Shown here piece after piece: positions 3,835 through 43,720 of a stretch of DNA of 64,000 nucleotides. Numbering within the stretch: the stretch's first letter is position 1; each line of letters begins with the position of its first letter. The stretch is from a virus. The DNA is taken from positions 248,001 to 312,000 of IMG/VR virus record IMGVR_UViG_3300035182_002586. One strand, given 5' to 3'. The notes under the pieces are model-generated. The model saw nothing but the letters and a program-made list of their open reading frames with translations, did not search any database and was not told the origin of the DNA. A program made the translations under genes and the position numbers.

Positions 3835-6800
3835 TCACGTTGCCGACCTGTAAGTGATCGTGAAGTCACCCAGGGTGATGAACTCGACCATCGCCGCAGA
3901 GATGTCGTGGGCGCCCTTGTCCCCGTTGATGACGTAGCTAGCTGCGTACGCGTGGTTCCCGGGGTTGTCCGGGGGAAGCCCCGCACCCGACATGGAGACG
4001 ATGATGTGGTTTGCGGTCCGCTGGAGAAGAGCAGCGGCTCGGGTCTCCGGGGTCGTGTACCCCGCCGCGATCAGCGTCGCGTCGTCCGTGTATCCTGCGA
4101 TCACGGCACCCGTCGCACCGATGATGAACGCCTGCTTCGGTGCGAAGGCCACCTGGGAGAGCGTCGAGGCGAGCGCCATGCTCACGTCATCCTGGAAGAC
4201 CCCCTTATGCTGAGTCTTCGTCCCGCCCCCGTCCGTGGTCGGGTACTGGAGGGGGTTCGTCAGGATGTACGCGACGTTGGCTCCGATCGCGAGGGTCGGG
4301 AGGGCCAAGTAGGTGGAGAGGATCGACTCCCGTAGCTTGCGCGATCCGTTGGCGTAGGCCGTCTTGGCGTACGGCACAGGGGAGTAGTCCACGCCTGTCG
4401 TCGAGTCGATCACCCTGATGATGTCCGACTGCGCGATCCCCTGGCCGATCGTCTTGCTGTCCAGCTCGTTGCTCAGCCCCGTACGAACGGCCGGGTCCAC
4501 CTTGTCCTTAGTCGACCCCTTGAGGAGCTGGATGGTCGTCTCGATGTCGATGGGGTTCTCGACCGCCTGCTTCACGAGGACATCTGCCGTCACGTGTCGA
4601 CGGACGTTGACCGTCTGTTGCAACTCCAGGAGGAGGTCGTTGACGACGTATGTGACCGTGAAGTTCTCGTCGTGCACGTAGTCGACCGAGACCTGCTGCC
4701 CGTTCGAGATGGTGGACGCTGCGGTGCGCACGATCTTCACGGGGGTCGTTGCTGTACCGACGATGATGTCGAAGTCCGGGCTGACGGCGCTCGGCCCTGA
4801 GTACTCGATCGTGCGCGCCTGGTTGAAGACGCGAATCGTCTCGGTGTTGATGCCGATCGAGAGAAGGGGCTCCTGCACGAACCCTACAAGGACGTGGGCT
4901 TCGTCGTTGACGGTGAGGGTGTTCCCGCTCGGGACGCCGCTGACCTGGTTGATCGAGAGGTAGTCCTGAGCGATCGTGCTTTCACCCGTGAGAAGAGGGT
5001 CGTCTGTCTTGTAGAGGTCATAGCCGAGCGTGGTGTCGAGCGGCCCGGAGACCTCCCCGACGACAGAGACGACACGGCGGACCGGCTGGAGCGTGAACCG
5101 GAACTGGTTGATGACGCGGAAGCGGTAGTCCGCGATGATCACGTCATCGATGTGGGTGACCGGCTGCGCGATCGCGGTGTTGATCTTGAACGTCTGATAG
5201 TCGAGGATCGTCACGCCCGTGAGGTCGTACGTGAGACCCGTCGTGGCGTTGCGGACCCCAAGACCCTGCGCGGGGTTGTTGAGGACCTCGACGATGGGGG
5301 TCGTGGGCGTGACGCGTGAGTCGAGGACGCGGAAGACGAGGTTGGTCAGGTCGATGATCGCACACTGGATGTCACGTGCGATCTCGAAGGTGAACGCGAA
5401 GGTGTCCGAGACCTGGCGCTCTCGGAGGCCCTGCACCCAGATGTCGACTTTGCCCCCAATATGCTTGCCTCGAACGGGGTCGTAGTCCCGCATCATGAGG
5501 GGGTCGCCGCTCTTGACGACCTTGGCCTTGATGATGCCGATTTCCTCGGCTGCGGTGGCTGCGTAGCCGCCTTCCGTACCCGTGTCGACAGAGGAGTAGG
5601 CGAGCTGTGCGCGCGTCGCGAGGTCTGCGTTCGACTCTCGGTCCGTGCCGAAGACCGTCGACTCCGTGTTCGTGACCGACACCCCGGAGACCCCGGTGAT
5701 GTTCTTGATGGTCCCTGCGGATCGGTTCCCCGTGGAGCCAGTGTTCTCGGCCACGATGTCTACGATCAGCTCGTAGCGTTTGGTGTCGAAGTTGTAGAAG
5801 GCCGATGCGTTCGCAGCGGGCAGCGTGTACGAACCACCGATGCGGAAGCGAACGGAGGACAGGTTGTTCGTGGGGTCCGAGTCGGTCGACACGAACGACC
5901 CCGCCGGCACTACGATGTCCTGCGTGGGCTTGGCGTTCGTGTAAACCACTGCCTGACCCACGGCGGGGCGACCGGGGAGGCGCTTCTTGTTCTCGTTGGC
6001 CGCGAGCTTGTCGAACTGCTGATCGATGAGGTTCTGCACCGAGGCATCGTCAGGGAGGCCGAGAGCTGCCTTAAGGGCCTGCTTGTAGGCGCTGCTGGCG
6101 ACGGCATCCGACACACCCGTGCCGTTCACGTCGTCAACCTGGATCAGCGTCAAGAAGCTCTGCGAGCGGTGCACGAAGTCGACGATGAACCAGATGCGCT
6201 CGGCCTCTGAGGCGAAGGGGTCGATCGACACATCACGGGTCGTGGACCCAGGGATGAGCGCGATACTGCTGTTGACCTGCTGCACCTGCGTCAGGTAGTC
6301 GAGCGTGACCTGAAACTGCGTGCGTCCGGGCAGGTCCCGGATCGTGGTGTCGATGACGAGAGGGGCACCGAGGACTTCCTGCGAGTAGGAGGTCTCGATC
6401 TCCTTGTTGTTCGTCTTGTCGTAGTAGACGCCGGTGACGACGTAGTAGAGGGGCTGCGTGTCGTCCACGCCCGTGAACTGGTCGGAGTTCGTGATCCCTG
6501 CACCACCCGCGCGGTTGTGGCGGAAGTACACGTACTGGTCGAGCCGGTAGTTCTCCAGGGTGCTGGAGAACCGGAGGTTGTCGGTGAACGAACTCGTCAG
6601 GTAGACCCTGTTGAGACGCTCGTTGAGGACGTTGTTGAACGCGTCCTCCTCCGTCACCTTGACGCGCACGTAGGTGTAGGTCGGGTCCGTCCACGAGGTC
6701 TGATCCGAGAAGGTCGTGAAGACTGTCTCGCTGAACAAGGTCGTGGAGAGCACGGGCCTCTCATTGACCTTGAAGTACCCGGTCGAGCCACCGGGTGACG

Positions 6801-7296
6801 ATGAGGCGTAGAAGTTGAACCCCAAGAAGTCCAGGGTCAGGGGGATGACCGTTGCGACGTTGCCGAGGAAGGACACCGTGGGTACGGGCACGGCCGCGAG
6901 GATGTCCACCGTGTCCCGGCGGCGACGCACGCTCACGCCCGTAGGGATCGTAGCACCCGTGTCTGAGAGGATGCTGACTCTCGTGATCACGGCCGTGGAT
7001 GTGGCGCTCACGCCCCCCACGATGTCGATCGTTCGGATGGCGATGGTGTTGACGCCGAAGTCGAGGAGCAGCCCTGACGGGTAGGAGGCCGGGTTCGGGA
7101 TCGTGAACGTCAGCAGGTCCAGAAGAACGAGTGTCGGATCCGAAACGAAGGCAGCCCCGTTGATCGACACCTGGATCGCAGCCGTGTCTACTCCGACCGT
7201 ACCGGTCAGAACCACAGCCTCCTGGTTCGTGGTGAACACCAGGTTCGTAGTGAACCCGGTTCCGTCCCTGAGTGCGATCTGAGGAGCCGATGCCAT
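3835..7296 (-). CDS. Baseplate J-like wedge protein
   Basis: A 1153-residue protein, much longer than P2 gpJ (about 300). Its middle (about residues 480-760) contains the baseplate-J signature region: a run of short beta segments, then FGTDRESNADLATRAQL and GTEGGYAATAAEEIGIIKA, as in gpJ and T4 gp6-type wedge proteins. The N-terminal ~300 residues look like beta-sandwich domains, and the C-terminus has a flexible helical region. It would form the baseplate ring that triggers sheath contraction. The ATG at 7296 lies next to the stop of the HNH gene at 7298. Confidence 0.8.
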   Translation of the reverse strand: MASAPQIALRDGTGFTTNLVFTTNQEAVVLTGTVGVDTAAIQVSINGAAFVSDPTLVLLDLLTFTIPNPASYPSGLLLDFGVNTIAIRTIDIVGGVSATSTAVITRVSILSDTGATIPTGVSVRRRRDTVDILAAVPVPTVSFLGNVATVIPLTLDFLGFNFYASSSPGGSTGYFKVNERPVLSTTLFSETVFTTFSDQTSWTDPTYTYVRVKVTEEDAFNNVLNERLNRVYLTSSFTDNLRFSSTLENYRLDQYVYFRHNRAGGAGITNSDQFTGVDDTQPLYYVVTGVYYDKTNNKEIETSYSQEVLGAPLVIDTTIRDLPGRTQFQVTLDYLTQVQQVNSSIALIPGSTTRDVSIDPFASEAERIWFIVDFVHRSQSFLTLIQVDDVNGTGVSDAVASSAYKQALKAALGLPDDASVQNLIDQQFDKLAANENKKRLPGRPAVGQAVVYTNAKPTQDIVVPAGSFVSTDSDPTNNLSSVRFRIGGSYTLPAANASAFYNFDTKRYELIVDIVAENTGSTGNRSAGTIKNITGVSGVSVTNTESTVFGTDRESNADLATRAQLAYSSVDTGTEGGYAATAAEEIGIIKAKVVKSGDPLMMRDYDPVRGKHIGGKVDIWVQGLRERQVSDTFAFTFEIARDIQCAIIDLTNLVFRVLDSRVTPTTPIVEVLNNPAQGLGVRNATTGLTYDLTGVTILDYQTFKINTAIAQPVTHIDDVIIADYRFRVINQFRFTLQPVRRVVSVVGEVSGPLDTTLGYDLYKTDDPLLTGESTIAQDYLSINQVSGVPSGNTLTVNDEAHVLVGFVQEPLLSIGINTETIRVFNQARTIEYSGPSAVSPDFDIIVGTATTPVKIVRTAASTISNGQQVSVDYVHDENFTVTYVVNDLLLELQQTVNVRRHVTADVLVKQAVENPIDIETTIQLLKGSTKDKVDPAVRTGLSNELDSKTIGQGIAQSDIIRVIDSTTGVDYSPVPYAKTAYANGSRKLRESILSTYLALPTLAIGANVAYILTNPLQYPTTDGGGTKTQHKGVFQDDVSMALASTLSQVAFAPKQAFIIGATGAVIAGYTDDATLIAAGYTTPETRAAALLQRTANHIIVSMSGAGLPPDNPGNHAYAASYVINGDKGAHDISAAMVEFITLGDFTITYRSAT

Positions 7297-24910: not shown

Positions 24911-26809
24911 TCAGACCCCTACAGCAACTTCGGTGGCGGTCACAGGTAGTTCAGGGGGAGGAGGTGGAACCTTCTCGGCCCCCACATCGGTGACGGTCTT
25001 GGGGATGGCGGAAGAGGACTCGTTGAGGATGGGGTTGGGGGGCACGAAGGGCGGCGCCCCGAAGGTGAGGGCGGGATCGCTCACGTTGTCGAGGAGGAAC
25101 CACGCTCGGACCGTGAACGAGAACGAGTACTCCAGCGTGAACGGGCCCGTGTCGGCCTCGTTGATGCTGAGATTGTCGAAGCTCCCGATGTACAGGATGT
25201 TGTCGTAGTAGATGTAGATCGACCCCACGACAGAGAGCGTGGGAGCGCCCGTCTTCCCGACGATGCCCTCGTTGTTCAGCCACACGCCCCCGTTGTTCTT
25301 GTAGAGCAGGTAGAGGGACAGGAAGTTCTGGTAGCTGTCCGACATGTTGCGGCCCGTGCGGGTGAGCCCCCCACCGCCGGTGCTCATGCTGACTGCGTAG
25401 AAGCCGGCGAGCTTGCCGGACCCTTCGATCTTGTCCTGTTGTTCGCCCCAGTGCTCGATGATGGGTCCGTTACGGCCATAGTTGCCGTCGGAGATGATCT
25501 TCTCCCCGCTCACCTTGAAGCTCGTGGGGTTCACCAGGAGACGGAGAGGCGGCGTCTTCGCCATCTTGTCCAGCTCTCGCTGCGTCGCCTTGATCATCGC
25601 CTCCTGCGCAGCCTGGAAGCTCGTTCCGAGGTCGGTGAGGTTCAGGTCCTTGTTGGAGGTCTTCTCGATCGTCTTCTTCGCCGTGCTGGCGTCACCCGAC
25701 CCGCTCGGCTTCCAGTCCCCCGTCGTTGCTCCGCCAGTGGGGCCCGCACCAGGGTTGAGGGTGCCGTCGGCACCGCCCTTCAAGGCCGCCTCACCTTGCG
25801 CAATGCCGGCAGTGATCCAGTCAGGAAGGGGTTTGTTTGCGTACTCGGCCACCTGGTCGACGTTGATGGCTCCGATAGGCTCTTGGATGACCTTGCCCGT
25901 GGCGTCCTTCTTGGGTACGTCGAAGCCGGGGTTCTGCTGGTAAGCCAGGTCTTGGAAGTCCGCCCGTGGGAACTTGAACCCCGGGTGGTCCTCGATGTAC
26001 TTCTTCTGGTACGCCGCGCTGGCGTACAGGATCCCGGGGGGATTACCGGAGTTCTGGAAGCCCCCGAAATTACGGAGGTAGGCTTCCGTGGCGGTCATAC
26101 CCTTGACGCCACCCTTCGCGAAGAACTTTTCGGCCCAATAGAGCTGGTTGTCGGCCGAGGTGTTCTCGTAGTTCTTCCAGTCCTCTTCCGACATGCCGAT
26201 GCTCTTCGCGGGATCGAGCATCAACTGGTTGAGGCCCTTGGCCACGGGCACAGGGGGGTTACCCTGCTTGTTCACGGCCGTGGTCTTGAAGCCGCTCTCA
26301 CCCTTGATGACGGCAGCGAGGACCTTGGGGTCCACACCAAGGCGCTTACACATCGCCACATACTTCGTCCAGAAGTCCGGTGGTAGGGCTCCGTTGGGCA
26401 GACCCGCTCCACCACTGGTGTTCCCCTTGATGTTCAGCTCGTCGGCGAAGCCTGTGATCGAGGCTACGCTGGCCGAACGATCGAGGTGGCGTCCCGTGAC
26501 GTTGGAAGACGGGGGTAGCACCCCGATGATGAAGGGCTTGGCGTCCTTGTGGTACGCGTCTGACTGAGAGAACCCCACGAAGTCGGAGGTTGCGGGGTCG
26601 TCCTCCGTCCGGAGCCGGCTGTACTGCGTGAGGAGGTTGTAGACCTGCGGGGCGTAGGTGTCCGCCGTGTTCTCGATTTGCTGGTAGACGCGCTGCTCAG
26701 GGGAGGTGGGGGACGCCGTGGTGATGCCACCCGCAGGCACTCCTCCGGTCTCCGTGAGAACGGTGGGGGACGCGCTAGGGTCGACTCCGGTGCTTGTATT
26801 GAGTGCCAC
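24911..26809 (-). CDS. Tail-associated lytic transglycosylase fused to tail domain
   Basis: 632 residues from GTG 26809. Residues ~145-260 look like a soluble lytic transglycosylase: LAAVIKGESGFKTTAVN has the catalytic Glu at about 171, followed by AKGLNQLM. The C-terminal ~200 residues (from PLRLLVNPTSFKVSG) are paralogous to the neighbouring gene at 26819-27550. The protein likely cuts peptidoglycan during tail penetration while anchored to the baseplate through the C-terminal domain. The linker between the domains is rich in Gly, Thr and Ser. Confidence 0.75.
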   Translation of the reverse strand: MALNTSTGVDPSASPTVLTETGGVPAGGITTASPTSPEQRVYQQIENTADTYAPQVYNLLTQYSRLRTEDDPATSDFVGFSQSDAYHKDAKPFIIGVLPPSSNVTGRHLDRSASVASITGFADELNIKGNTSGGAGLPNGALPPDFWTKYVAMCKRLGVDPKVLAAVIKGESGFKTTAVNKQGNPPVPVAKGLNQLMLDPAKSIGMSEEDWKNYENTSADNQLYWAEKFFAKGGVKGMTATEAYLRNFGGFQNSGNPPGILYASAAYQKKYIEDHPGFKFPRADFQDLAYQQNPGFDVPKKDATGKVIQEPIGAINVDQVAEYANKPLPDWITAGIAQGEAALKGGADGTLNPGAGPTGGATTGDWKPSGSGDASTAKKTIEKTSNKDLNLTDLGTSFQAAQEAMIKATQRELDKMAKTPPLRLLVNPTSFKVSGEKIISDGNYGRNGPIIEHWGEQQDKIEGSGKLAGFYAVSMSTGGGGLTRTGRNMSDSYQNFLSLYLLYKNNGGVWLNNEGIVGKTGAPTLSVVGSIYIYYDNILYIGSFDNLSINEADTGPFTLEYSFSFTVRAWFLLDNVSDPALTFGAPPFVPPNPILNESSSAIPKTVTDVGAEKVPPPPPELPVTATEVAVGV

Positions 26810-37613: not shown

Positions 37614-37973
37614 GTGGCTCGGATCGTAGTCTGCGCTGTCGATGTGACGGCGAAACAGCTTCTCTCCCTAGGGACAGACGAACGCCTTCGGTCGGTCACG
37701 GACGCCTTGAAGGTGGAACGGGTCGGTGGACGCCTCACCGTTTCGGTCGATGAAGCGGGGCGGATCCACATAGAGTTCGATGCCCACGGGGCCAGTGACC
37801 CTGTTGTGGAGGCTCAGACTCCACCGATCGAAGAGCCCGGAGAGAAGCTGGAGACGGAGGATCTGCGGCTCACCGTTGACCCTCCGGAGATCTTGATCGC
37901 CGTGCCCACAGAGGAAGAGATGCAGCAGTACGGCACCCTGGAGCCGGACAAGGGCACCACCTCGACGACATGA
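37614..37973 (+). CDS. Unknown 119-aa protein
   Basis: Starts at GTG 37614 right after the previous stop. The N-terminus is VARIVVCAVDVTAKQLLSLG, followed by a beta pair (RVGGRLTVSVDEAGRIHIEF). The C-terminal half is acidic and likely extended (PPIEEPGEKLETEDLRLTVD). No motif is recognised. Its TGA stop forms the left end of an 11-bp inverted repeat whose right end is the start codon of the GT51 gene, so the two genes may be linked by RNA structure. Confidence 0.6.
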   Translation: MARIVVCAVDVTAKQLLSLGTDERLRSVTDALKVERVGGRLTVSVDEAGRIHIEFDAHGASDPVVEAQTPPIEEPGEKLETEDLRLTVDPPEILIAVPTEEEMQQYGTLEPDKGTTSTT

Positions 37974-37999
37974 CCCCCCTCGGTGTAAGAGGGGGGTCA
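37971..37999 (+). promoter_or_regulatory. 11-bp inverted repeat spanning stop and start codons, with GGTGTA in the loop
   Basis: TGACCCCCCTC (37971-37981) is perfectly complementary to GAGGGGGGTCA (37989-37999), with the 7-base loop GGTGTAA. The left arm contains the stop of the upstream gene; the last base of the right arm is the A of the GT51 ATG. In a read-through transcript the start would be at the base of a very stable hairpin. If GGTGTAA is a promoter, a transcript starting after it would lack the left arm and be free to translate. Confidence 0.7.
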
Positions 38000-39696
38000 T
38001 GGAAGCAACCAAGAAATCCCGTCGTCCCCGATGGTCGGTCGTTCTAGGTACCGTCGCGGGAGTGGTCGCCGTTGCTCTTGTCGTGGCCTGGTTCGTCGCA
38101 CCTGTGATGGTGCGACGCTACGTGGAGCAGCACTACAAGGGGGTCCACATCCAAGGCGGGGTGACCCTATCGTTCCGTGGTGTCGCACTCCACGGGGTCG
38201 AGATCGACAGGGAGGGGGTCAAAGCACAGCTACCCCTCGTGCGTGTGCTCCCGGATGAGAGCGTCGTCGTAGAGGGCGGGACGGCTACCCTCACCCTGAC
38301 GGAAAAGCCAGGGGGCGGTAACAGCGACACGAAGAGACGGGTCGTGGGGTGGTTGGATGCGGCCACGGTCGTGCAGGGGGACGTCAAGGGGACTGCCACG
38401 AAGGTCACGTTCGACGACTTTCGCGTCTGCGCCGAGAAGGTGGAGGCGCAGCACCCAAAGGGTTCGGTGTCTGGTGCCACCGTCTGCGTGAGGAAAGACC
38501 GCACGCTCGTCACGGCCGAGGCGCTGACGGCCACACCGAGCTTCAAGCTCCCCTACATCGACAAGCTGCCGGCCCCGACCCCCAAGGACATCACCGTCAC
38601 TGGCGTCGAGTTCAAACCGAAAGAGCCGAGCGTATCGGTCAAGACGGCCACCTTTGGGCCGGTGTCGGTCAAGTCCGGGTACGCAGCGATCAAGTCCGCG
38701 ACCGTGTATCTCATGGGGGACGTGACTCTGGACCTGGCGGTTCTGCACACGGGGCCGATCACGTTGAAGGACGTGAGCACCAAGATCCCTGTGGCGGATC
38801 TGGCGAACCTGACGAAGATCCCGGTTCAGATCGGCCCCGCTCGGGTGGTGATCAGCCCGGGGGACATGTCCCTCGAAGGGGATGCGAAGTGCCAGGCGTG
38901 GGTCGATGCGTTGCCCACGGAGCTGCGTACGGGCCCCCTTGCCACGATGCGCCTGGAGGGGTCCTTGTCCTTCACAGTCGCCGTGAAGCCCCCCACGCCC
39001 ACGTTCAAGATGAAGGCGGACTGCCACGCCTCGTGTGAGGGGTTCAAGCCTCTGTCGGGGAAGTTCACCTACACGGCCTACGATGCTGACGGAAAGGAGT
39101 TCGTGCGCACGACGGGTCCGGGCACGAAGGACTGGACCCCGATCGGCGAAGTGAGCGCCACGCTTCCGGCCGCCGTGATGTCGACGGAAGACCCCGGGTT
39201 CCTCGGGCACAAGGGGGTCATCCCCGAGGCCATCGAGAACTCGCTGCGGGACGACCTCAAGGCCGACCGCTTCGTGCGCGGGGGCTCCACCATCACGATG
39301 CAGCTCGTGAAGAACGTCTGGCTCCGACGGACCAAGACGCTTGGACGCAAGACCCAAGAGGTCCTGCTGTCGCTCGCGATCGAGTCGTGTCTGTCGAAAG
39401 ACGTGATCATGGAGACGTACCTGAACGTCGTCGAGTTCGGCCCCAATCTCTACGGGGTGGGGCCCGCGTCGCAGCACTACTTCGGAGAAGCTGCGATGAC
39501 TCTCGACCCTGTGCGGTCGTACTACCTGGCTTCGATCCTCCCCGCCCCTCGAAAGGCTCCGCCCCCGAACACCGAGACCTTGGAGCGCATTCGCTCGCTG
39601 ATGATCCGTGTGTCGAAAGAGAGTGGACAGCTCTCGGACACGTTCGGAGCACCTAGCCCTCAGGACGAAGAGGGGTGGGTCGTCAACAAGCCGTAG
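37999..39696 (+). CDS. Membrane-anchored monofunctional peptidoglycan glycosyltransferase (GT51) with AsmA-like N-terminal region
   Basis: 565 residues: a basic N-terminus, one membrane helix at about 15-37 (VVLGTVAGVVAVALVVAWFV), a beta-rich region of about 340 residues resembling AsmA-type domains, then a GT51 domain from about 390. The key motifs are all present: EDPGFLGHKG (catalytic Glu at about 397), GGSTITMQLVKN, RKTQEVLLSLAIE, and METYLNVVEFG with the second Glu. It would polymerise lipid II into glycan strands outside the inner membrane. No transpeptidase domain. Phages normally encode enzymes that cut peptidoglycan, so a complete synthase is striking. Confidence 0.9.
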   Translation: MEATKKSRRPRWSVVLGTVAGVVAVALVVAWFVAPVMVRRYVEQHYKGVHIQGGVTLSFRGVALHGVEIDREGVKAQLPLVRVLPDESVVVEGGTATLTLTEKPGGGNSDTKRRVVGWLDAATVVQGDVKGTATKVTFDDFRVCAEKVEAQHPKGSVSGATVCVRKDRTLVTAEALTATPSFKLPYIDKLPAPTPKDITVTGVEFKPKEPSVSVKTATFGPVSVKSGYAAIKSATVYLMGDVTLDLAVLHTGPITLKDVSTKIPVADLANLTKIPVQIGPARVVISPGDMSLEGDAKCQAWVDALPTELRTGPLATMRLEGSLSFTVAVKPPTPTFKMKADCHASCEGFKPLSGKFTYTAYDADGKEFVRTTGPGTKDWTPIGEVSATLPAAVMSTEDPGFLGHKGVIPEAIENSLRDDLKADRFVRGGSTITMQLVKNVWLRRTKTLGRKTQEVLLSLAIESCLSKDVIMETYLNVVEFGPNLYGVGPASQHYFGEAAMTLDPVRSYYLASILPAPRKAPPPNTETLERIRSLMIRVSKESGQLSDTFGAPSPQDEEGWVVNKP

Positions 39697-40662: not shown

Positions 40663-41049
40663 ATGTCGAACGTCAACACGGATCAGATCGCAGAACAGCT
40701 CGGCCAGCTCTCCGTCATGGAGCTGATTGGCCTCACAAAGAAGCTGGAGACCGCCTGGGGCGTTTCGGCGGCGCCTGCCGTCAACCTGGCCCCGCCGACC
40801 CCGTTGCCGGGCACCCCGGTCGTCGCAGAGCAGACGGAGTTCGAGGTCGCCCTCACGGGCCTCGCCGCCCCGGACAAGAAGATCTCGGTCATCAAGGTCA
40901 TCCGGGAAGTCACGGGCCTCGGCCTCAAGGAGGCGAAGGACCTCGTGGAAGCCCTCCCGAAGACCGTGAAGGAAGGCATCGCGAAGGCGGAGGCGGAAGA
41001 CCTCACGAAGAAGCTGCGTGAGGCCGGCGCCACGGTCGAGATGAAGTGA
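40663..41049 (+). CDS. rplL: Ribosomal protein bL12 (L7/L12), full length
   Basis: 128 residues in the host bL12 layout. The N-terminal dimerisation domain (about 1-34: [20 protein letters not shown]) is followed by an Ala/Pro hinge (about 35-55) and a C-terminal factor-binding domain with [20 protein letters not shown] and [18 protein letters not shown]. The conserved Lys-Ile-x-Val-Ile-Lys and Gly-Leu-Gly-Leu-Lys-Glu-Ala-Lys elements are intact. It would join the ribosomal stalk and recruit translation factors. It has its own GGTGTAT motif and Shine-Dalgarno. Phage-encoded bL12 is known from environmental viruses but remains rare. Confidence 0.95.
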
Positions 41050-41070: not shown

Positions 41071-41077
41071 GGTGTAC
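41071..41077 (+). promoter_or_regulatory. GGTGTAC motif before pyrB
   Basis: GGTGTACCGGC lies 12 bases before the pyrB ATG and no Shine-Dalgarno is present between them. The same 11-base string recurs at 54071 and 59049. It suggests pyrB can be transcribed independently of bL12. Confidence 0.55.
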
Positions 41078-41089
41078 CGGCGCGCCCCG

Positions 41090-42043
41090 ATGACGGACAT
41101 CAAACACGCAGTCTCCATCGACCAGTTCGACAACCCCTCGATCGAGAGGTTGTTCCTACGAGCCAGGACTCTTCGGGACGCCGACGTGCAGGCGAGCAGC
41201 CTCGCGGGCAAGGTCCTCGCCTGCCTCTTCTACGAGCCCTCGACCCGCACCTCGTCCAGCTTCATCGCTGCGATGACTCGGGCCGGGGGCTCGGTCATTC
41301 CGATCACTCAAGGGGTGCAGTTCTCCAGCGTCTCGAAGGGCGAGACGCTGGAAGACACGATCGTCACCCTCGGTCAGTACGCCGATGCGATCGTTCTTCG
41401 TCACCCGGAGGTGGGCGCAGCCGCACGGGCGGCCGCTGTCTCCCCGGTCCCGGTCATCAACGCCGGAGACGGTGCCGGAGAACACCCGACGCAGGCGCTC
41501 CTGGACCTCTTCACAATCCAAGAGGAGTGTGGCGGCCGCCTCGACGAGCTGAACGTGACGTTCGTGGGCGACCTTGCGCACGGCCGTACGGTGCACTCGC
41601 TGGCGAAGCTCCTCGCACGGCACAACACGAAGATCAACCTCGTCTCCCCCTTCCTTCTCCGCCTCAACCGGATCGGGGATGACGACCCTACCTACCGGGC
41701 CGTCAAGCATCGGATCGGACGGGAGCGCACCGTCAAGAACGGGCTCCACGAGGCGCAGGACATCCTGAACGATTCGGATGTCATCTACATGACGAGGGTG
41801 CAGAGGGAGCGCTTCACGTACGCGGAAGGGTACGCGGAGGTGAAGGACTCCTGCCTGCTCACGGACGAGATCGTCGCGGGGCTGAAACCTCGTGCGCGCA
41901 TCCTCCACCCGTTCCCGCGCGTGAACGAGATCCCGACCACCATCGACAAGGACCCTCGCGCGGCCTACTTCCGGCAGATTCGCAACGGGCTGTGGGTCCG
42001 GATGGCCCTTCTCGAAAGCGTCATCCTCGGGAGGACGCCGTGA
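41090..42043 (+). CDS. pyrB: Aspartate carbamoyltransferase catalytic chain
   Basis: 317 residues, matching the ~310 of bacterial PyrB. The carbamoyl-phosphate motif FYEPSTRT is at about 48-54. SKGETLEDT, RHPE and EHPTQALLDLFTI (His at about 132) follow. GDLAHGRTVHSL, RVQRERF and the C-terminal HPFPRVNEI complete the set, so the enzyme looks active. It makes N-carbamoyl-aspartate, the committed step of pyrimidine synthesis. The regulatory chain PyrI is absent, which would free it from CTP control. The stop overlaps a GTG that begins an abandoned copy of the dNMP kinase start. Confidence 0.93.
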   Translation: MTDIKHAVSIDQFDNPSIERLFLRARTLRDADVQASSLAGKVLACLFYEPSTRTSSSFIAAMTRAGGSVIPITQGVQFSSVSKGETLEDTIVTLGQYADAIVLRHPEVGAAARAAAVSPVPVINAGDGAGEHPTQALLDLFTIQEECGGRLDELNVTFVGDLAHGRTVHSLAKLLARHNTKINLVSPFLLRLNRIGDDDPTYRAVKHRIGRERTVKNGLHEAQDILNDSDVIYMTRVQRERFTYAEGYAEVKDSCLLTDEIVAGLKPRARILHPFPRVNEIPTTIDKDPRAAYFRQIRNGLWVRMALLESVILGRTP

Positions 42044-42931: not shown

Positions 42932-42942
42932 GATATGGAGGG
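42901..42942 (+). repeat. Three tandem copies of a 14-bp unit
   Basis: TAAGATATGGAGGG is repeated exactly three times, covering the last codons of the GIY-YIG gene (its TAA stop is in the third copy) and the Shine-Dalgarno of the kinase, GGAGGG. Such repeats expand or shrink by slippage. Each copy carries a ribosome-binding core and an ATG, so copy number may change kinase translation. Confidence 0.85.
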
Positions 42943-42949
42943 TAGTAGG

Positions 42950-43720
42950 ATGCTTCTAGGTATCAGCGGGTTAGCGAACAGCGGCAAGGACACGGTGGCG
43001 AAGTTCCTCGGGGAAGACCTCCGGTTCGTTGGCATCGCGTTCGCTGATCCCCTCAAGCAGATCGCGAAGACGGTCTACCGCTTCACGGACGACCAGCTCT
43101 GGGGGCCGTCCCACATGCGCAACACCCCCGACAAGCGCTACCCTCGGTCTCACACCTGGGTCCTGGCCGATCGGCTCGCCGAGCACGAGATGACGTGCGC
43201 CTGCTGTGGGGCTGGAGCCAACCGCCGACTCGTCGAAGACGACCTGCTCGTGGTCAATGAGGAAGACGTCTCCCCGTGCTACCTCACGCCGAGGTATGCC
43301 CTCCAGCTTCTCGGCACGGAGTGGGGGCGGCAGTGCTACCCCGACACGTGGGCGCTCCTTGGCGTCACCAACGCCAAGGAGCTGCTCGGGCCCAACGGAG
43401 CTGGACTTCGTTACGACAGGGCGCGTGGCATCTGGCGCTCGGACCGGCACCCGACGGAGAAGGCGGCAGGCGTCGCGATCACGGACGTGCGCTTCAAGAA
43501 CGAGATGAGGGTCATCCGTGAAGGCGGCGGGAAGGTCATCCGCGTTCGTCGACCCGGGGCTGGACTTGGGGGCGGGGCCGGGCTCCACCCCTCAGAGGCA
43601 GAGCAGGCGAGCATCCCGGATTCGGCGTTCGACGCGATCATCGAGAACGACGAGACCCTCGACGTTCTGCGTGCGCGGTCGCACGACACCCTGGTGAGCC
43701 TCGGGGCCACGGGTTACTGA
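42950..43720 (+). CDS. Deoxynucleoside monophosphate kinase
   Basis: 256 residues. The P-loop GLANSGKDT (about 7-15) lies at the N-terminus, followed by FVGIAFADPLKQIAKTVYRF and a lid-like region, the pattern of phage T4 gp1-type dNMP kinases. A CACC motif (about residue 84) is an unusual insertion and could bind zinc. It converts dNMPs to dNDPs for phage DNA synthesis. The start is the ATG at 42950 because of GGAGGG just upstream; an in-frame ATG at 42935 lies in the repeat. It is next to pyrB, which fits a nucleotide-supply unit, and overlaps the patatin stop convergently by 7 bases. Confidence 0.85.
   Translation: MLLGISGLANSGKDTVAKFLGEDLRFVGIAFADPLKQIAKTVYRFTDDQLWGPSHMRNTPDKRYPRSHTWVLADRLAEHEMTCACCGAGANRRLVEDDLLVVNEEDVSPCYLTPRYALQLLGTEWGRQCYPDTWALLGVTNAKELLGPNGAGLRYDRARGIWRSDRHPTEKAAGVAITDVRFKNEMRVIREGGGKVIRVRRPGAGLGGGAGLHPSEAEQASIPDSAFDAIIENDETLDVLRARSHDTLVSLGATGY

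Follow-up and report, generated by a model that had tools for sequence, protein, structure and literature searches.

What does a phage gain from a gene for building peptidoglycan? Phages are known for cutting peptidoglycan or for inhibiting its synthesis, and the window studied here (64,000 nucleotides of the 528,957-bp IMG/VR record IMGVR_UViG_3300035182_002586) contains a candidate for the opposite activity at 37999..39696 (+). A preliminary description, made from the sequence alone, took this gene to encode a complete GT51 enzyme with both catalytic glutamates and an intact membrane anchor, preceded by an AsmA-like region. It further held that the contig is genuinely phage, that the gene may be host-acquired because its layout recalls myxobacterial enzymes, and that endolysins and a tail muramidase are encoded in the same window. 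The checks it proposed were a profile search against GT51 families, a structure prediction of the full protein and a search for homologues in other large phages.

Domain architecture and predicted structure

The open reading frame starts with ATG and encodes a product of 565 amino acids, in which an AsmA/RBG-like beta-groove is followed by a GT51 peptidoglycan polymerase domain (assigned from the ORF, Pfam PF00912 and AlphaFold). The profile search returned PF00912 (Transgly) with an E value of 1.9e-43 (148.4 bits, against a cut-off of 27) over residues 374-534, corresponding to 39118..39600 (+), and the best sequence matches in the PDB were the GT51 domain of Aquifex PBP1A and other class A PBPs. 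Motifs I (EDPGFLGHKG, with E397), II (GGSTITMQ), III (RKTQE, with E454) and IV (KDVIMETYLN) are all present. The two catalytic glutamates, in motif I EDPGF..H.G (E397, codon 39187..39189, +) and motif III RKxxE (E454, codon 39358..39360, +), align with the ED and RKxxE motifs of Aquifex PBP1A and are invariant across a 24-sequence alignment that includes three bacterial relatives. At the N-terminus, a basic cytoplasmic tail is followed by a membrane-spanning helix (codons 12-45, 38032..38133, +), seen both in the AlphaFold model and as a hydropathy peak of 2.57 at residue 15 (19-residue window) preceded by five K/R residues; the expected topology is N-in, C-out. The domain, its glutamate pair and the anchor are thus as first described, and the protein is very probably a GT51 peptidoglycan polymerase.

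The AlphaFold model, computed with 24 family members as input, has a mean pLDDT of 85.7 and a pTM of 0.75. Its C-terminal domain adopts the lysozyme-like GT51 fold and matches 3nb6 in Foldseek (E 9e-11, prob 1.00, TM to target 0.76). Between the helix and this domain the model shows a long beta-groove, probably of the AsmA/VPS13-like (RBG) type (codons 46-345, 38134..39033, +), whose best Foldseek matches are LPD-3 (BLTP, bridge-like lipid-transfer protein) and LptD. Both were matched again when residues 1-350 were modelled separately (pLDDT about 85; LPD-3 E 2.6e-6, LptD E about 1e-3), with the low TM-scores that are usual for curved grooves, and C298 and C342 of the groove region are invariant in the family alignment. 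Among predicted viral structures, no GT51-named protein was matched at E 0.001, the matches there being to the groove. The window protein has no significant match to the AsmA/DUF748 Pfam profiles (DUF748 E 0.17); its bacterial relative L007 matches DUF748 at 1.6e-8 and AsmA at 5.6e-5, both under the curated Pfam cut-offs. The label AsmA-like is therefore supported by the predicted fold and by the relatives, without a direct profile match, and it is on these grounds that the two-part layout proposed earlier is supported.

The same order of helix, AsmA-like region and C-terminal GT51 is found in bacterial AsmA/DUF748-GT51 proteins, namely those of a deltaproteobacterium (L007, 796 aa), of other members of the same GTDB phylum (L152-L180) and of Bacteroidota (about 650 aa). 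Their GT51 domains are 41-51% identical to the phage one. They differ in a longer N-terminal region, most of the proteins having 680-1000 aa compared to 530-720 in the phages, and in motif I, the EDPGF form of which is typical of the phage clade. MtgA (monofunctional, TIGR02070) is likewise a membrane-anchored GT51 enzyme that has the same motifs and lacks a transpeptidase, but the window protein scores 135.3 bits against TIGR02070, below the equivalog cut-off of 182.65, and is longer by a region of about 300 residues. Class A PBPs share the GT51 fold and the catalytic pair, whereas their transpeptidase domain is missing from the window protein, which ends after GT51. GenBank phage genes annotated as 'mtgA' or PBP (for example in Microcystis phage MaAM05 and contig405706) also place GT51 on phage-labelled records; these are 31-44% identical in the GT51 part only, and the tree described below puts them with bacterial enzymes. 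The GenBank phage records with GT51 that were examined resemble bacterial DNA or a prophage edge. In MaAM05 (L002, MW495066), 'mtgA' is surrounded by secF, glyS, fabI, gatD and engB, which looks like bacterial DNA filed as phage.

Distribution and origin of the phage family

The record is that of a tailed phage, with terminase, portal and baseplate genes. Considering it together with its relatives, terminase (TerL) was found in 18 of 25 records and baseplate genes in 15 of 25, while portal genes were present in all ten records tested and in none of the control genomes, and 16S rRNA was found in none of the 25. PHROG profiles succeeded on these divergent phages, most of which escaped the Pfam terminase and sheath profiles. 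This marker content is that of a phage contig and not of a bacterial chromosome, as the preliminary description had assumed. The baseplate wedge (J-like) protein of the window (3835..7296, -; phrog_6, E 2.5e-24) was used both as a phage marker and as bait for relatives. By this protein the nearest annotated phages are a 485-kb uncultured phage (36%), Tunturiibacter phage Tunturi_5 and Bacillus phage G, all three absent from the listed GT51-bearing phage records. The record also contains about 53 tRNA-like genes and a tmRNA with the tag ANDNGTVITALKAAA, at about 123-177 kb (L294-L296).

A profile built from the window protein and one phage homologue retrieved 31 viral loci, many of them full-length, with 29-40% identity, the longest contig measuring 512,571 bp. 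Altogether the family comprises 28 distinct phage members and a divergent 29th, most on contigs of 200-513 kb, so that homologues in other large phages do exist. The catalytic motifs are kept in all members, GT51 is the best conserved portion of the phage proteins, and the copy number is one wherever whole records were searched. Relatives were found by alignment-based scans, single-protein scans of viral and genome contigs being too unspecific; L006 was rejected as a false match from such a scan, and L118, a PBP1-like gene on an 8.6-kb contig, was set aside. When relatives were instead sought by the baseplate protein, independently of GT51, 26 contigs longer than 200 kb were obtained. Exactly one GT51 gene is present in 13 of these, four of which are new members, and GT51 is thus carried by at least 13 of the 26; the other 13 are the most that could lack it, since L199, with a baseplate identical to a GT51 carrier's, is probably a fragment. 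In the baseplate tree, a clade of six contigs is without GT51. Given this patchy presence, the gene is dispensable to the phage family.

The evolutionary history of 84 GT51 domains was inferred with IQ-TREE, using 25 phage rows (including the window and the divergent L117) from which near-copies and one bacterial-type gene had been removed. The 24 phage rows other than L117 are monophyletic (support 90/80); L117 falls outside, although its membership of the clade is not rejected (p-AU 0.24). The phage clade joins six bacterial proteins of the GTDB phylum of L007 (support 93/86) and is placed among AsmA-GT51 proteins, away from class A PBPs and MtgA. Support is moderate both for the phage clade and for its nesting in bacterial homologues. 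The L007 record is titled 'Deltaproteobacteria bacterium' and is placed by NCBI in Myxococcota; since that title is a catch-all label, Myxococcota is the likely, not proven, source group. The gene was apparently acquired long ago from deltaproteobacterial or myxobacterial hosts, in accordance with the host acquisition suggested by the layout.

Among 16 phages, GT51 and baseplate distances are correlated (Mantel rho 0.45, with 24 of 5000 permutations as high), which is consistent with an old acquisition followed by mainly vertical descent, with repeated loss or exchange. The gene is under purifying selection in the one pair for which this is measurable, L098 and L102 (dN/dS 0.16, in both halves of the protein), synonymous sites being saturated in the other pairs.

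Genomic neighbourhood and probable expression timing

The neighbours of the GT51 gene encode an HNH endonuclease, ribosomal protein bL12, aspartate carbamoyltransferase (PyrB; 41072..42043, +; Pfam), which is common to four phage loci, and a deoxynucleoside monophosphate kinase (42935..43720, +; PHROG/Pfam), found near GT51 in 7 of 24 phage loci. The bL12 gene (40663-41049, +) is complete, with N-terminal dimerisation and C-terminal domains. In several phages, 2'-5' RNA ligase/Acb1-like (possible anti-CBASS) genes lie within a few kb of GT51 (L088:7062-7985; L094:8306-8902, -), and a nicotinamide phosphoribosyltransferase gene and a VWA-domain phrog_2426 protein are encoded near it in related phages (L106:17100-18488, + and L106:7041-9458, +, respectively).

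A GGTGTA motif stands 17 nt upstream of the GT51 ATG (37982..37987, +), and a second copy (41071-41076) belongs to PyrB, the distance to the ATG being 17-19 nt for the two genes. According to genome-wide statistics, 118 of the 332 occurrences of GGTGTA lie 14-19 nt before an ATG-started ORF, compared to about 5% for the best unrelated permutation. The motif looks like a phage-specific promoter core giving leaderless or very short-leader transcripts. Among genes predicted by a crude caller, it precedes none of the 51 in the tail/baseplate block and 46 of the 507 in the rest of the genome (Fisher P 0.015), a distribution which suggests that GT51 is not co-expressed with the tail genes. The consensus of the motif is C-GGTGTA-[GC], with no -35 box visible, and it often occurs as TACACC-N-GGTGTA between divergent genes; it is enriched in several related phages too, and precedes the GT51 genes of several relatives. 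In the window it also forms most of the loop (GGTGTAA) of a perfect 13-bp inverted repeat (37969-37981 / 37989-38001), which covers the start codon of GT51 as well as the stop of the preceding gene and whose region folds with -33.5 kcal/mol (z -4.3). A conserved RNA hairpin regulating GT51 was ruled out, as relatives are without the inverted repeat.

The nucleotide-metabolism neighbours and the absence of the motif from the tail block disfavour a late role in lysis; they fit an action of GT51 before lysis, and do not choose among wall maintenance, repair of the entry wound and exclusion of rivals. As to the wall-degrading enzymes of the window, one was found among the scanned ORFs, a probable virion-borne lytic transglycosylase with an SLT domain (24911..26809, -; Pfam SLT E 3.3e-6, with matches to PHROG lytic tail proteins). 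The plural endolysins of the preliminary description were not confirmed. The predicted activity of this protein is the opposite of that of GT51. No PF00905 transpeptidase was found in 26 phage records, and cross-linking must therefore come from host enzymes.

Possible roles in the infected cell

We favour, with some reservation, a phage-borne, monofunctional, inner-membrane-anchored GT51 polymerase that makes glycan strands from host lipid II before lysis, with upkeep of the wall as the likely benefit. The protein would be made before lysis, in the non-tail expression class, and its helix and charge distribution point to insertion in the host inner membrane, facing the periplasm, where it would take up host lipid II. 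Lipid II is the expected donor because it is what GT51 enzymes use, as is established for the family. The new strands would be cross-linked by host transpeptidases, so that a growing or injection-damaged wall may be kept intact through a long infection, and the lytic enzymes of the phage itself would act at entry and exit. Of the possible benefits, keeping up or repairing the wall of the infected cell is the likeliest, with about even chances. The beta-groove probably positions the enzyme or passes lipid to GT51, which is speculative; the fuller proposal, of a huge-phage lineage which builds host wall with a GT51 enzyme of its own and whose AsmA-like groove feeds lipid to the active site or places it, is put forward tentatively, at somewhat less than even chances.

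An unlikely alternative, though the strongest one, is superinfection exclusion, in which GT51 would thicken or remodel the wall, or crowd entry sites, in such a way that rival phages cannot inject. An arms-race gene of this kind would fit the non-tail expression class and the patchy presence, but exclusion genes usually swap often, and the single conserved clade found here tracks the phage phylogeny. Slightly less probable still is that lipid II is diverted into uncross-linked strands, weakening the wall or starving host synthases and so aiding takeover or lysis. The missing transpeptidase partner could be read in this way; the gene does not, however, lie in a lysis neighbourhood or belong to the tail-block expression class, its AsmA-GT51 relatives are normal bacterial genes, and bacteria ordinarily have monofunctional GT51 enzymes, which are not toxic. 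It is improbable that the GT51 domain is no longer enzymatic and the protein a lipid-groove or envelope scaffold: the N-terminal region does match lipid-transfer folds and has its two invariant cysteines, but no phage member has lost either glutamate or any of the four tested motifs, and conservation is highest in GT51 itself. Finally, an assembly artefact, with the gene being bacterial and its contig chimeric or bacterial too, is hardly credible here, for although most GT51 hits in GenBank 'phage' records look like bacterial contigs and make the general risk real, the homologues come from many independent metagenomes, on contigs with terminase, portal and baseplate genes and no 16S rRNA, share neighbours across several loci and form a phage-only clade.

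Tables of CAZymes from viral metagenomes list GT51 in one line each, with no gene, phage or architecture (PMC9602057, PMC11656804). Term searches of two jumbo-phage reviews and one large survey gave no mention of a peptidoglycan polymerase, and no description of a phage GT51 family of this type was found in the open-licence papers searched, although it may have been noticed earlier elsewhere. Even in bacteria, the combination of an AsmA-like groove with GT51 has received little description, and its part in wall synthesis seems not to have been studied. If the conserved phage polymerase is what it seems, viruses would possess a family of enzymes that build the wall, in opposition to the lytic enzymes which these phages also encode, and certain giant phages would be investing in the growth or repair of the host wall. 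How a cell survives for long enough, or enlarges enough, for the production of virions with half-megabase genomes would then become open to testing.
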